From assembly GCA_000769715.1 (NCBI GenBank), contig JROS01000039.1:1-64000 (forward strand): a stretch of DNA of 64,000 nucleotides, written 5' to 3'. The notes under the pieces are model-generated. The model was not told where the DNA came from. It did no database searches and saw only the letters and a list, made by a program, of their open reading frames with translations. The DNA comes from Desulfobulbus sp. Tol-SR. Its GTDB lineage: Bacteria > Desulfobacterota > Desulfobulbia > Desulfobulbales > Desulfocapsaceae. Positions 16,698-22,580 of this stretch are shown here, one piece after another. How positions within the stretch are numbered: the first letter of the stretch is position 1; each line of letters opens with the position of its first letter. The position numbers and the translations under genes are program-made.

Positions 16698-19600
16698 TCA
16701 CCCGCCCGTCCCGAGCGCCTCCGCCTGCTCCACCGTCAGGGTGATCGCGCCGTAATCCTGCTCGACGGTGCCGGCCAGGACATAGGCCCGACCGCTCTGC
16801 AGCAGGTGGGCGCAACGGCGATAGACCGGCGGGAAGAAGGTGGCCTCGACGATGCCGGTCTCATCCTCGAAGGTCAGGAACTCCATGGCCTCGCCGCTCT
16901 TCGTCGCCACCAGCTTGCCGGTCAGCAGCCAGACGGCGCAGCGCACCCGGCGATTGACGCATTCGCCGAGCCGGGCGACCTTGACCAGGCCCGGCGGCAC
17001 CCGGCCGATCAGGGTCACCGGGTGATCGCTGCAGAGAAAACCGAGCACCGCGTACTCGCGGCGCAGCAGCGTCGTACGGTCCGGCGGCGGCAGCGGCGGC
17101 GGTTCGGGCAGCACGGCCGGAAAAAGCGAGGCCGCCTTCGCCGTCTCGCGCAGGCGCAGGAAGACGGCCCATTGCCAGAGCAGGGCGGTGCGGTTGCCCC
17201 CCGGATCCAGGCTGTCCATCGCCCCGGCATGGATCAGGGCCCGGGCCTCGTCGTCGGCCGGCCGGACCCGGTGCCAGAAATCAACGGCAGCGACGAATTT
17301 TCCCTGCTGCCGAGCCACCAGCAGCCGGTCGAGACAGGCGGCGGAGAGCCCGGCGACCGACTGCAGGCCGACCCGCAGCGATCCAGGCCGTCCCTGCCAC
17401 CGGCGGTCGCCGGCGTTGACATCGGGCGGCAGGACCGTAAGCCCCAGCCGTTTGGCCTCGGAGACATAGGCAAAGGTCGAATAGTAGCCGCCCTGGTTGG
17501 AGATCACCGCCGCCATGAACTCGGCCGGGTGGTGGCGCTTGAGATAGGCCGCCTGGAACGAGACCCGGGCGTAGGAGGCGGAGTGGGGCTTGCAGAAGGA
17601 GTAGCCGTCGAAACTCAGCATCATCCGCCAGACCGGGTCGATATCGGCCTCGGCGACCCCCCGCCGGCGACAGCCGTCGTGGAAACGCCGGTGGTAGTCC
17701 TGCAGCTGCAGGACCTTGTCCTTCTTCGCCATCACCTTGCGCAGGCCGTCGGCATCGGCATGACTGAAACCGGCCAGGGCCACCGCCACCCGCGACACGT
17801 CCTCCTGGTAGACCATCAGGCCGTAGGTCTCGTCGAGGATGTCGCCGACCGCCGGATGCAGCGGCTGCCAGCTGCCGCCATGCAGCCGCCGGACGTATTC
17901 ACGAACGAACTCGTTGGCGGCCGGACGGATGATCGACGACTGGATCACCAGCTGCTCGAAGTCGCCGCTGCCGGCCTTCCGCTCCAACAGGCGCATGGCC
18001 GGGCTCTCGATGTAGAAACAGCCCATGGTCCGGCCGGAGGCGACGGCCTCCCTGGTCGGCCGATCGTCTTCCGGGTTCCAGCCGGACTCGGCCAGCGGCG
18101 TCCCGCCCTGCCGTACCGCCGCGATACAGTCGCGGATGACGCCGAGGCTGCGGTTGCCGAGGATGTCGATCTTGACCAGTCCCGCCTCCTCGGCGCCGTC
18201 CTTGTCCCACTGGATGATCGGCACCCTGATCGGCATCTTTTTGACGGCGTATTCGATCGGGACATAGTCGGTGATCGGTCCGGGGGTGATGATTACCCCG
18301 CCGGAATGGACCGACAGATGGCGCGGCAGGCCGATCAACCGGGTTGCCAGGCGGAGGATCGCCGGCCAGGGGGCGGAGAAGTCCTGGTCGGCCAGCGACG
18401 GCAGGCCCTGCAACCGCTCTTGCAGCCCATCGCCGTCGCCGCGGGAGAGCCAGGGCAGGCGGCGGGTCAGCCGCGCGATCTCGCCCTCCGGGAGGCCGAA
18501 GACCTTGGCGGTCTCGCGGATCGCCATCCGCGGCTGAAAGCGGATATGGTTGCAGACCATCGCCGCCTGGCCGGCGTGGTCGCCCAGGATGTCGGCCAGG
18601 ACCTCATCGCGCTCGTCCCAGGCGAAATCGATGTCGATGTCCGGGGGGTCGCGGCGGCCGGGGTTGAGAAAACGCTCGAAATAGAGGTTGTAGCGGATCG
18701 GGCAGACGTTGGTGATGTCGAGGCAGTAGGCGACCAGCGAGGCGGCGCCCGAACCGCGGCCGCAGATCCGCCGTTTGTGGCGGCGGCCGTCCGCCCCCTT
18801 GCGGTGGACGATGTCGCGGACGACCAGAAAATAGGCGGAATAGCCCATCGTCGCGATGATCCGCAGTTCATGCTCGAGCCGGTCGACCACCGTCTCGCCG
18901 AGGTCGTCGCCGTAGCGGCGGCGGGCCCCGGCGTAGGCTCTGCGCCGCAGCACCTGGACAGCCTCCCCTTCCCCGCCCCGGCGCCAGGGCGGCATGACGA
19001 TGCCGAAGGCCGGACCGGTGAAGGCGCAGCGCTCGGCCACCGCCAGCGTCGCTTCCACCACCTCCGGCCACACGGCGAAGCGGCGGCGGTACACCTCCGG
19101 CCCGCACAGCGGGTGGACCCCGGCCGGAGACTCCAGGGTTTCCAGGCGACTGAGGGTGGTAGTGCCGGCGATCGCCCGCAGCAGACGATAGAGGTCGCGC
19201 TGCTCTTCACCGGCGAGCCGGCTGGCCGGGGTGGCGACGGCGACAACGCCCCGGCTTCCGGCCCAGTTTCTGAGCCGGCGGCCGGCTTCGGTCGGCTGCG
19301 GGCCGAGATCGGCGACCGGCGCCAGCCCTCGTTCCCACAATTCGTCGAGCAGCGGCAGATGATCGCCGAGGATGGTCAGCCCCTCGCTGCCATCGGCCAG
19401 CGCCGCCGCGAGATCAAAGCCGGCCGGGTCGTGGCGCCGGCTCAGCAACCGGCAGAGGCTGGCATAACCGGCCTCGTCCTCGACCAGGCAGGTGGCCCGG
19501 CGCATGGTGCCGGGCTCGGAGATCTCGGCGCCGACCACCGGCCGCAACCCCTCCCGCCGGCAGGCGGCGAGAAAAGGCCACAGGCCGTAGAGGTTGTCGC

Positions 19601-19715
19601 CGTCGGTCAGCGCCAGGCCCGGATAGCCGTGCTGCCGGGCCTGACGGCAGAGGGTCGCCGGCGGCGCGGTGCCTTCGAGCAGGGAGTAGGAGGAACGGAC
19701 CCGGAGAGGAAACAT
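16698..19715 (-). CDS. dnaE2: Error-prone DNA polymerase III alpha subunit, DnaE2/ImuC type
   Basis: C-family polymerase for SOS translesion synthesis. The 1005-residue length matches DnaE2 rather than replicative DnaE (about 1150). The PHP domain is present but its first metal motif is degenerate (RVRSSYSLLEG at 5-15 in place of HLHSxYS). The active-site motifs are intact: GRGSGAAS (319-326) and PDIDIDF (358-364). The helix-hairpin-helix and OB regions follow (FLTFEDETGIVEATFFP). It lies 9 bases after the Y-family gene in a lexA-led cassette, so LexA control and damage-induced mutagenesis are inferred from context. Confidence 0.93.
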   Translation of the reverse strand: MFPLRVRSSYSLLEGTAPPATLCRQARQHGYPGLALTDGDNLYGLWPFLAACRREGLRPVVGAEISEPGTMRRATCLVEDEAGYASLCRLLSRRHDPAGFDLAAALADGSEGLTILGDHLPLLDELWERGLAPVADLGPQPTEAGRRLRNWAGSRGVVAVATPASRLAGEEQRDLYRLLRAIAGTTTLSRLETLESPAGVHPLCGPEVYRRRFAVWPEVVEATLAVAERCAFTGPAFGIVMPPWRRGGEGEAVQVLRRRAYAGARRRYGDDLGETVVDRLEHELRIIATMGYSAYFLVVRDIVHRKGADGRRHKRRICGRGSGAASLVAYCLDITNVCPIRYNLYFERFLNPGRRDPPDIDIDFAWDERDEVLADILGDHAGQAAMVCNHIRFQPRMAIRETAKVFGLPEGEIARLTRRLPWLSRGDGDGLQERLQGLPSLADQDFSAPWPAILRLATRLIGLPRHLSVHSGGVIITPGPITDYVPIEYAVKKMPIRVPIIQWDKDGAEEAGLVKIDILGNRSLGVIRDCIAAVRQGGTPLAESGWNPEDDRPTREAVASGRTMGCFYIESPAMRLLERKAGSGDFEQLVIQSSIIRPAANEFVREYVRRLHGGSWQPLHPAVGDILDETYGLMVYQEDVSRVAVALAGFSHADADGLRKVMAKKDKVLQLQDYHRRFHDGCRRRGVAEADIDPVWRMMLSFDGYSFCKPHSASYARVSFQAAYLKRHHPAEFMAAVISNQGGYYSTFAYVSEAKRLGLTVLPPDVNAGDRRWQGRPGSLRVGLQSVAGLSAACLDRLLVARQQGKFVAAVDFWHRVRPADDEARALIHAGAMDSLDPGGNRTALLWQWAVFLRLRETAKAASLFPAVLPEPPPLPPPDRTTLLRREYAVLGFLCSDHPVTLIGRVPPGLVKVARLGECVNRRVRCAVWLLTGKLVATKSGEAMEFLTFEDETGIVEATFFPPVYRRCAHLLQSGRAYVLAGTVEQDYGAITLTVEQAEALGTGG

Positions 19716-19724
19716 GGCGCGGTC

Positions 19725-20930
19725 TCAGGCGGCCTCGCCGGTTGCCGCCGGCAAGGGGGACAACCGCTGCCGGCCGGTGGCGATCAGGGCCTGGCCGTAA
19801 CGGCTGCGGATGGTGTCCATGGCCGCCAGCAGCCCGGCCTGCCGCCGTTCCCGACCGTGGGTCTCGGCAAAGAGCGGCAGCTGCGGTGATTGCCGGCACA
19901 GATCGTCGCAGACCAGGCGGCAGCTGCGCAGCCGCCCCCGCCGCAGCCAGGCCCGGGCCAGGGCCTGGTCGGCCAGTTGTTGCAGCTGAAAATCATTGGC
20001 GGTGCGCCGCCGGCCGGAGGCCGAACGGACCACCTGGAGGCCGTCGGCATAGCCGACCCGGACGCCGACCCGGCGCGCCTCCTGCCGCCGCTGCCGCAGC
20101 TCCATCCCGGCCCGGCTGATCAGGTCGGCCACCGCCGCCTCCACCTCCTGCCGGTCATTGGTATCGCCGGCAAAGACATGCTCGAAAACGACAGCCTCCT
20201 TTTCCGCCCCGGTCTGCACCGGGGCGGTGTCGATGCCGCGGCTGGCATCGTACAGATAGTCGCTGCGGCGGCCGAACGGCACCAGCAGCTGGCCCCGGCT
20301 GAGGCCGGCCAGCTGGCCGACGGTGAAGATCCGGAACTCGCCCAGCCGCCGCAGTTCCCCAGGCGCCAGCCCCGGCAGCAGGGACACCGGCAGGGGGGCG
20401 AGGAAATCGGTCTCGTCGCCGGCACTGACGATGTACTCGCCGACCGGCTTGACCAGCCGCGAGGCGACCTTGGCCACCAGCTTGCTGGTCGCCAGGGTCC
20501 AGATCGGGTTGAAGCCGAGCTGCCGCCGCACCTCCCTCCGCAGCCGCAGGCCGACATCCATCGCCGGCCCGAACAGGCGATGGGTGCCGGTGAGGTCGAC
20601 GAAGACATGGCCATCCTCGAGGCCGTGCTCCAGCCGTGGCGAATAGCTCCGCACCTGCCGCAGGAAGTCGTCCATCGCCCGGCGGTACAGCTCCGGCCGC
20701 GGCGGCCGGACCTCGGCCCCACGGCAGACCCGGGCCGCCTGCGACAGCGCCATCCCCTTGCGGACCCCGGCTCGATAGGCCTCCTCGCTCATATCGTAGA
20801 CCGTCGCCCGCGAGGTGCCGGGCGGGGCGATGATCAGCGGCCGCCCCCGCCGCGGCGCCTCGGCCGCCTGCTCGACGGCGACGGCGAAATCGGTGACGTT
20901 GAGGTGGAGGATCGCACGTTCCCGGGACAT
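19725..20930 (-). CDS. Y-family polymerase-like protein lacking catalytic acids (ImuB-like)
   Basis: The 401-residue protein has the Y-family fold: a palm/fingers start, YSPRLE, VDLTGTHRLFG, the helix-hairpin-helix stretch SLLPGLAPGELRRLGEFRIFTVGQLAGLS and a little-finger region. The metal-binding residues are altered. Where active enzymes have HxDxDxF it reads H9-L-N11-V-T13-D-F, and at the second site (usual DE) it has E105-D106-G107-H108, so at most one acid remains. The same loss defines ImuB, the non-catalytic adaptor that links DnaE2 to the beta clamp in other bacteria. A short QLPLF stretch near residue 360 resembles a clamp-binding motif. No imuA is adjacent. An adaptor role is inference. 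Confidence 0.82.
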   Translation of the reverse strand: MSRERAILHLNVTDFAVAVEQAAEAPRRGRPLIIAPPGTSRATVYDMSEEAYRAGVRKGMALSQAARVCRGAEVRPPRPELYRRAMDDFLRQVRSYSPRLEHGLEDGHVFVDLTGTHRLFGPAMDVGLRLRREVRRQLGFNPIWTLATSKLVAKVASRLVKPVGEYIVSAGDETDFLAPLPVSLLPGLAPGELRRLGEFRIFTVGQLAGLSRGQLLVPFGRRSDYLYDASRGIDTAPVQTGAEKEAVVFEHVFAGDTNDRQEVEAAVADLISRAGMELRQRRQEARRVGVRVGYADGLQVVRSASGRRRTANDFQLQQLADQALARAWLRRGRLRSCRLVCDDLCRQSPQLPLFAETHGRERRQAGLLAAMDTIRSRYGQALIATGRQRLSPLPAATGEAA

Positions 20931-20942
20931 CGCCCCTCTCCC

Positions 20943-21791
20943 TCAGGCGCTCGCCCCGCCCAGGATCTCGACCAGCAACCGGGCGTTGCGCGGTGCCTGG
21001 GCCCGGACATGGTTATTGAAGAAGACCACCCCCCGCTCCGCCCGGGCCGCCATCGGCCGCAGGATCGCATCGCTCCACTGCCGCAGCTCGGCGGCGCTGT
21101 AGTCGTAATCGAATTTCTTCTGCATGTTGCCGGAGCGCCAGCCGACGCCGTTGCGCCCATGGAGGCGGACATAGAGCAGTTGCGGGTTGGTGACCACATC
21201 GAGCAGTGGAAACAAGCCGGGCAGCGACGGGGCGTCGACGGTCACCAGGCTCACCGCCCGCCGCTCGAGCTCGGCGAAGACCCGATCGACGGCCCAGGAA
21301 CCGTGACGGAACTCCACCGCCACCGGCAGACCCTGCAGACCGTCGAGGAGGGCGGCGAGATGGCGGCGGTTGTCGGGGCTGCGCTCGAAATCCGGCGGCA
21401 GCTGGATCAGAACGGCAAGCAGACGACTCCCGAGCGGGGCGATGCCGCGGCGGAACTGCTGCAACTGCTCGCGCCAGTCCTGCTCCCGTTCGTGGGTGAT
21501 GGTCCGGGTCAGCTTGGCGGCAAAGCGCAGGTGCGGCGGGGCCTTGTCGACCATCCGGGCGATCGCCTCGGCCCGGGCCATCTGGTACCAGGTGTAGTTG
21601 AGCTCGACCACCGAGAACGAGCGGCCATAGAGCGGCAGCATCGCCGCGGTCCTGGTGCCGGGCGGATAGAAGCCGCTGTCGGCCCATTCGGTATAGGAAT
21701 AGCCGCAGGTGCCGACGGCGATGCGGCAGCCCCTGCCCTGGCCGGCGCTGTCGGTTTCGCCTACGGTCAGTATCGCCGGCGGCCCGTTCAT
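20943..21791 (-). CDS. DUF72 (YecE-like) TIM-barrel protein in the SOS cassette
   Basis: The 282-residue protein shows the DUF72 pattern: VGTCGYSYTEW near residues 26-36, FSVVELNYTWY, FAAKLTRTITHE, LLAVLIQLPPDF, VEFRHGSW, YVRLHGRNG and VVFFNNHV near the C-terminus. The biochemical role of DUF72 proteins is not established; the fold is a TIM barrel. Its ATG overlaps the lexA stop (ATGA), and it precedes the Y-family gene by 12 bases, so it is co-transcribed with the mutagenesis genes. That position suggests a part in DNA repair or in its control, which is inference. Confidence 0.88.
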   Translation of the reverse strand: MNGPPAILTVGETDSAGQGRGCRIAVGTCGYSYTEWADSGFYPPGTRTAAMLPLYGRSFSVVELNYTWYQMARAEAIARMVDKAPPHLRFAAKLTRTITHEREQDWREQLQQFRRGIAPLGSRLLAVLIQLPPDFERSPDNRRHLAALLDGLQGLPVAVEFRHGSWAVDRVFAELERRAVSLVTVDAPSLPGLFPLLDVVTNPQLLYVRLHGRNGVGWRSGNMQKKFDYDYSAAELRQWSDAILRPMAARAERGVVFFNNHVRAQAPRNARLLVEILGGASA

Positions 21792-22438
21792 GCCACCCGC
21801 TGCCCCGTCTCGAAGATGCCGCCGGGGCCCCGGATCACCCCGACCACCCTGCCCTGCACCAGCACCTCGCCGAACGGGTAGCGCATCACCGGGAACTCGG
21901 GATTCTCCGGCCGCAGTTCGATATGGTCGGCCTGGAGAAAGAAGCGCTTGACCGTCGCCTCCTCCCCCTGGATCAGCACCGCCACGATCTCACCGTTGGC
22001 GGCGTACTGGCGGGGCTCGCAGATCGCCAGGTCGCCGTCGAGGATGGCGGCGCCCTGCATCGACCGACCCCTGACCCGCAGGCAGAACAGGTTGTCGCCG
22101 GGGAAGAGGCGGCGGTCGACGAGCACCGAACCGTCCCATTCCTGCTGGGCGTACATCGGCAGACCGGCGGTGATCTGGCCGATGATCGGCAGTTCCCGGC
22201 TGCGGTCGTCCCGCCGCCGGCGCTCCTGCCCGGCCACGAGGCGGATCGACCGGCTGTAGCGGCCGTCGCGTTCGACCACCCCCTTTTTCTCCAGCAGCCC
22301 GAGCAACTGGGCCACCGCCGTGTGGCTGACCCCCATGTCGGCCGCGGTCTGCCGCAGGCTCGGGGTCCTCCCGTCCCGGGCAAGGCACTCGGCCAGATAA
22401 TCGTACAGCCGTTTCTGGGTTCCGCTCAGCTCCATCAT
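21788..22438 (-). CDS. lexA: LexA-family repressor heading the mutagenesis cassette
   Basis: Self-cleaving SOS repressor of about 216 residues. The N-terminal winged helix (TQKRLYDYLAECLARDGRTPSLRQTA, VSHTAVAQLLGLLEKKG) is followed by the LexA/S24 peptidase domain. The catalytic serine lies in VRGRSMQGAAILDGD and the lysine in GEEATVKRFF. The cleavage-site region around PIIGQITAGLPM reads QITAG rather than the usual VAAG, so the scissile pair is probably Ala-Gly. Start at ATG 22438 (or the next codon) is chosen because GGAGGGGG lies just upstream. It is coupled to DUF72 and probably controls its own operon through the palindromes upstream. Confidence 0.92.
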   Translation of the reverse strand: MMELSGTQKRLYDYLAECLARDGRTPSLRQTAADMGVSHTAVAQLLGLLEKKGVVERDGRYSRSIRLVAGQERRRRDDRSRELPIIGQITAGLPMYAQQEWDGSVLVDRRLFPGDNLFCLRVRGRSMQGAAILDGDLAICEPRQYAANGEIVAVLIQGEEATVKRFFLQADHIELRPENPEFPVMRYPFGEVLVQGRVVGVIRGPGGIFETGQRVA

Positions 22439-22448
22439 CCCCCTCCAA

Positions 22449-22503
22449 TGTATATGGACATTTGCTGTAAATGTACATGTACAGCAGGATTTGTCAATAT
22501 ACA
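22449..22503. promoter_or_regulatory. Probable LexA operator cluster upstream of lexA
   Basis: The 55 bases before the lexA ribosome binding site hold the perfect 12-base palindrome TGTACATGTACA (22472-22483), a wider pair GCTGTA (22464-22469) and TACAGC (22480-22485), and two outer elements TGTATATGGACA (22449-22460) and TGTCAATATACA (22492-22503) that are near inverted copies of each other. Autoregulatory LexA boxes normally lie here. Which element LexA binds cannot be decided from the sequence. Confidence 0.65.
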
Positions 22504-22580
22504 TTTTTACATCCGGCATGGGGCGCCCGGACGGGATTGCAGCATCACGACGGGCAGAAAGGGGCGAGGGAGGGGGCGGG

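Follow-up and report, generated by a model that had tools for sequence, protein, structure and literature searches.

A stretch of 64,000 nucleotides from Desulfobulbus sp. Tol-SR (the window) carries a compact four-gene cassette, lexA-DUF72-iPolY-dnaE2, in which a TIM-barrel protein of the DUF72 family and an inactive Y-family polymerase (iPolY) are encoded between lexA and the gene for an error-prone C-family polymerase. Judged from its genes and motifs, this cassette is the published ImuA-less DnaE2-iPolY-RecA mutasome type supplemented by DUF72. We favor, with a probability of a little under 0.6, the reading that it constitutes an autoregulated SOS translesion cassette, in which DUF72 acts as an accessory SOS DNA-handling enzyme working with iPolY. 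The mutasome type itself was already known, and the new elements are the stable DUF72 partner and a second occurrence of DUF72 beside ImuA-ImuB-DnaE2. Timinskas and Venclovas 2019 (PMC6511836) described ImuA-less variants that pair DnaE2 with an inactive Y-family protein, lexA being a frequent companion, and the DnaE2B-iPolY-RecA class was named in a 2026 survey (PMC12926913). DUF72 is mentioned neither in the main text of the survey nor in the 2019 passages on ImuA-less operons; among the ten full-text literature matches for DUF72, which do not include the 2019 study, a study of polB2 (PMC11791011) alone ties its neighborhood to the damage response.

All four genes run in tandem on one strand (Table 1), and the tight cassette of the original prediction is upheld by profile matches, by the 4-bp overlap of lexA with DUF72, and by gaps of 12 bp between DUF72 and iPolY and of 9 bp between iPolY and dnaE2. 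The DUF72 profile (PF01904) is matched at 205 bits against a curated cut-off of 25.3. LexA possesses both the DNA-binding domain and the S24 peptidase domain; its start was placed at Met28 (22438), behind the ribosome site GGAGGGGG, the open reading frame itself opening at 22519. The source genome is a 4.2-Mb draft MAG, about 90% complete, and its closest named relative is Desulfoprunum benzoelyticum, with 88% identity in the Y-family protein.

Table 1. Features of the lexA-DUF72-iPolY-dnaE2 cassette and its upstream region (positions in the window)
Feature	Position	Strand	Basis
LexA operator region	22447-22507	-	motif learned from relatives' lexA upstream regions
operator palindrome AATGTCCATATACATT	22447-22462	-	PWM match
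operator palindrome GCTGTACATGTACATT	22470-22485	-	PWM match
third PWM match	22486-22507	-	overlaps TTGACA -35-like element
lexA	21788-22438	-	TIGR00498 154.8 bits, Peptidase_S24, LexA_DNA_bind; overlaps DUF72 by 4 bp
DUF72 (PF01904) TIM-barrel protein gene	20943-21791	-	Pfam 205 bits
inactive Y-family polymerase (iPolY) gene	19725-20930	-	IMS/IMS_C
lost first catalytic motif, N11-V12-T13 replacing D-x-D	20892-20900	-	Pol IV structure alignment, orthologues
lost second catalytic acid, G107 replacing E. coli Pol IV E104	20610-20612	-	same alignment, orthologues
beta-clamp binding motif QLPLF, aa 350-354	19869-19883	-	conservation
RecA-NT-like tail, aa 366-387, GLLAAMDTIRSRYGQALIATGR	19770-19835	-	conservation
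dnaE2, error-prone C-family DNA polymerase	16698-19715	-	Pfam/NCBIfam

A structure model of iPolY (pLDDT 86) resembles Pol IV/Dpo4 with Z of about 28. Alignment to Pol IV structures places N11, T13 and G107 opposite D8, D10 and E104 of E. coli Pol IV, and the earlier claim that the Y-family protein had lost most catalytic acids holds for all 78 orthologues: none departs from N11 or G107, and A or T occupies position 13. The catalytic loss is thus old and fixed, and does not represent a recent mutation. The clamp motif is conserved across the same orthologues (Q350 in 78/78, L353 in 77/78 and F354 in 75/78), its counterpart in mycobacterial ImuB being QLPLW (PMC11791113); the suggestion that the Y-family subunit might be a clamp adaptor fits this motif. 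The RecA-NT-like tail is similarly maintained (D372 in 78/78, R377 in 74/78, G379 in 77/78 and G386 in 74/78) and parallels DNAISQIQRQFGKGSIMRLG of the same genome's RecA, which is encoded at full length with an N-terminus matching the tail. In mycobacterial ImuB the RecA-NT tail binds ImuA' (PMC11791113), and in ImuA-less systems it has been proposed to bind RecA (PMC6511836). By these motifs and published analogues, the dead iPolY would serve as a scaffold that docks on the beta clamp through QLPLF and binds RecA through its tail, with RecA taking the place of ImuA.

ImuA was not found in the genome (about 90% complete): the ImuA profile, with a cut-off of 150 bits, matches RecA alone there, at 46 bits, and none above the cut-off was found in 37 other genomes searched. 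PF20114 (DUF6504), which we take to be ImuB-C, had no match in the genome, either on the Y-family protein or as a standalone protein, the same search being positive in Caulobacter. Like the lexA-imuA-imuB-dnaE2 SOS cassette, the window cassette combines LexA control, DnaE2 and a catalytically dead Y-family subunit that carries both a clamp motif and a RecA-NT tail, but it is devoid of ImuA and the ImuB-C domain and has DUF72 at the imuA position. With the putative DnaE2B-iPolY-RecA mutasome (gbDinB2-type; PMC6511836, PMC12926913) it shares DnaE2, a RecA-NT-bearing iPolY, the absence of ImuA/ImuB from the genome and the frequent presence of lexA, a likeness to the class as described in those papers; it differs in possessing DUF72, conserved within one large clade as the fourth gene. 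DnaE2 would perform the lesion-bypass synthesis. Its catalytic aspartates D361, D363 and D517 are kept in 67/67 homologues and its PHP histidines are largely lost. In a tree from which the published DnaE2B references are absent, it groups with other DnaE2 proteins, apart from DnaE1 and from the DnaE2 of Burkholderiaceae ImuABC.

The LexA motif, found in most cassette loci, matches the window at 24.5, 21.6 and 17.5 bits. Across the genome, no sites other than the two palindromes come within two mismatches of AATGTACATGTACATT, a reversed control giving 0 in the whole-genome scan. The single LexA match in the genome is the cassette lexA; with one LexA and close operator matches nowhere else, the strict LexA regulon may comprise little beyond its own operon. 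Going by the operator sites, DNA damage would give rise to RecA filaments, which would trigger self-cleavage of LexA and joint expression of the four genes. Where the gaps in a locus are wide, DUF72, iPolY and dnaE2 mostly have no LexA box of their own immediately before them (the exceptions being L071, L081, L063 and, weakly, L031), and hence the usual cassette reads as one lexA-led operon. In the Desulfatitalea loci L071 and L081, DUF72 heads its own operon, preceded by a 32-bit LexA box at a distance of 88 or 149 bp: lexA is not adjacent, dnaE2 is on another contig, and DUF72 and iPolY are still paired. These boxed pairs provide independent support for DUF72 being an SOS gene with iPolY as its closest partner. 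At locus L030, DUF72 sits on another contig, where it has no recognisable LexA box.

The DUF72 association had been offered as a genuine lead, with a survey of DUF72 neighborhoods for imuB-like and dnaE2 genes as the means of checking it, and the linkage indeed reaches beyond a single genome, recurring among sulfate-reducing bacteria. A DUF72 gene is present in 72 of 80 iPolY loci of Desulfobacterota and the complete four-gene order in 62, in a set found by window-protein patterns and biased towards the relatives of the window protein. Two further iPolY genomes have DUF72 elsewhere in the genome. Among relatives with iPolY identity of at least 50%, DUF72 occurs in 17/17 loci, and in the cassettes it mostly overlaps its neighbors or lies within about 20 bp of them. 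In a sample of 148 genomes from the phylum, cassette-type DUF72 (>400 bits) was recovered in 3 genomes, always adjoining iPolY, and 4 other iPolY genomes were without it; at the nearest non-cassette DUF72s of this sample (L154-L157) there was no match to the window lexA, iPolY or dnaE2. Approximately four lineages retain lexA-iPolY-dnaE2 or iPolY-dnaE2 without cassette-type DUF72, the RecA-NT tail being preserved in these cassettes, and deeper lexA-iPolY-dnaE2 relatives (L144-L152) are also without DUF72. In the iPolY tree the DUF72-less members are nested among the DUF72-bearing ones, which suggests one gain of DUF72 and about four losses. These repeated losses, together with the deeper cassettes, characterize DUF72 as an added, useful and dispensable part.

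The cassette DUF72s form a single clade (70 cassette homologues in the conservation set), and their pairwise divergence correlates with that of iPolY at r = 0.80. The partial correlation of DUF72 with iPolY, given lexA and DnaE2, is 0.35 (0.25-0.46), against -0.02 for DUF72 with DnaE2; DUF72 divergence seems to track iPolY, the partial correlation being modest and suggestive. The ORF lengths of the iPolY loci revealed no natural DUF72-iPolY fusions.

At loci L028, L052 and L067, the DUF72 gene appears to be cut short or frameshifted while the neighboring iPolY is intact, possibly reflecting ongoing decay or assembly error. The Desulfosarcina ovata plasmid Do28_1 (NZ_AP021877.1, 6370-12145), which is mobilizable, carries the whole lexA-DUF72-iPolY-dnaE2 cassette, so that horizontal spread is probably possible.

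The second linkage is found on Burkholderiaceae plasmids, where DUF72 lies downstream of imuA-imuB-dnaE2 in Paraburkholderia acidisoli (10 bp), Paraburkholderia sp. D15 (19 bp) and Caballeronia grimmiae (361 bp), and is divergent from imuA in Caballeronia sp. SBC2 (L183), with a shared LexA-type box, CTGTATGGATGTACAG, between them. Among the Burkholderiaceae DUF72 genes, a LexA-type box upstream is clear in L183 alone. The other plasmid DUF72s examined in this family lie away from the imuA-imuB-dnaE2 operon, and most plasmid dnaE2 genes or imuABC operons have no DUF72 neighbor. Because ImuA and DUF72 coexist on these plasmids, DUF72 there cannot serve to replace ImuA.

This coexistence bears directly on the earlier proposal that DUF72 may supply the role of ImuA, here taken as that of partnering the Y-family subunit structurally. 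The position of the gene, between lexA and the Y-family gene where imuA would stand, and the genome without ImuA speak for such a replacement. Against it stand the DUF72-less cassettes that persist, the presence of RecA-NT in all iPolYs whether or not DUF72 accompanies them, the occurrence of DUF72 beside complete imuA-imuB-dnaE2 operons in Burkholderiaceae, the predicted fold of DUF72, which is not RecA-like, and its conserved enzyme-like pocket. We consequently reject DUF72 as a stand-in for ImuA and hold this role to be highly improbable.

With regard to what DUF72 might do, its AlphaFold2 model (pLDDT 88.5) matches TM1631 (1vpq) with Z of 29.3. Beyond the DUF72 family, UV endonuclease (SacUVDE, Z 13.3), endonuclease IV and sugar epimerases tie, and the fold match is non-discriminating. 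A model of TM1631 with DNA assigns particular residues to DNA or phosphate binding (PMC3828134); their equivalents in the window protein, N65, W68-Y69, K93, H100, Q130, R162 and R209, are invariant or nearly so in the 70 cassette homologues, and several residues of this site are kept across the whole DUF72 family, beyond the cassette members. The crystal structures of DUF72 proteins contain no metal (PMC3828134). The conserved pocket at the TM1631 site points to an enzyme-like protein, for which DNA handling would be the best guess. Relative to other DUF72/COG1801 proteins (TM1631, EF0366, E. coli YecE), the window protein is alike in the PF01904 domain, in the match to TM1631 and in the conserved pocket, but it belongs to the SOS-cassette clade and has W68-Y69 where TM1631 has two tyrosines. 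Most likely, then, it is a putative TIM-barrel DNA-handling enzyme, fold kin of UV endonuclease and endonuclease IV, that would recognise or process damaged or single-stranded DNA, or the primer end beside iPolY. The genome encodes two more DUF72 paralogues (C79:24512-25285 and C76:22444-23211), which belong to another clade and are missing several of the pocket residues.

The same fold group, along with the several DUF72 losses in which iPolY-dnaE2 stays and the plasmids on which DUF72 is near Ku or LigD and away from imuABC, could also be read as a co-induced repair enzyme in a pathway of its own (e.g. UVDE-like incision), sharing the promoter and making no contact with the polymerase complex. 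We regard this as unlikely, given that DUF72 adjoins iPolY even where lexA and dnaE2 have moved off and that its divergence follows iPolY. The sugar epimerases that are numerous among the next-ranked TIM-barrel matches after DUF72 raise another alternative, namely action on small molecules, for instance as an epimerase-like or nucleotide-sanitising enzyme adjusting the pool of DnaE2. This we deem improbable, as no metabolic neighbor is conserved: the recurrent ones are lexA, the Y-family gene and dnaE2, to which published work adds polB2 and SRAP (PMC11791011).

Our preferred reading, an accessory SOS enzyme working with iPolY, can be placed in a wider setting. Bacterial polB2 operons independently show an enrichment of both DUF72 and lexA in their surroundings (PMC11791011). 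These operons (iRadA-PPB2-PolB2) resemble the window cassette in being damage-inducible translesion polymerase operons that involve an inactive relative of RecA/RadA and have lexA and DUF72 close by, but they use a B-family polymerase, and DUF72 is enriched in their vicinity without being a fixed operon member. It is possible, and we propose it only tentatively, that damage-induced translesion machines in general employ DUF72 as an accessory subunit or end-processing nuclease, recruited independently to ImuA-less DnaE2-iPolY, ImuA-ImuB-DnaE2 and PolB2 systems. If true, this would be the first cellular role for DUF72, a family spanning bacteria and archaea. The family is widespread and has solved structures, and its conserved place in two types of LexA-controlled mutagenesis operon, taken together with the published link to polB2, directs attention to DNA-damage tolerance. 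Its role thereby becomes testable, with organisms and partners now named. The arrangement also suggests that SOS mutasomes may include a processing enzyme alongside polymerase and scaffold.

Two further neighborhoods were recorded. On the Paraburkholderia plasmids L184 and L185, some 2 kb separate DUF72 from a Ku gene, and one of the two plasmids also has DNA ligase D in the vicinity. In the large Rhizobium phage RHph_TM2_3B (5995-7252), DUF72 overlaps a gene whose annotation reads DNA recombination-mediator protein.
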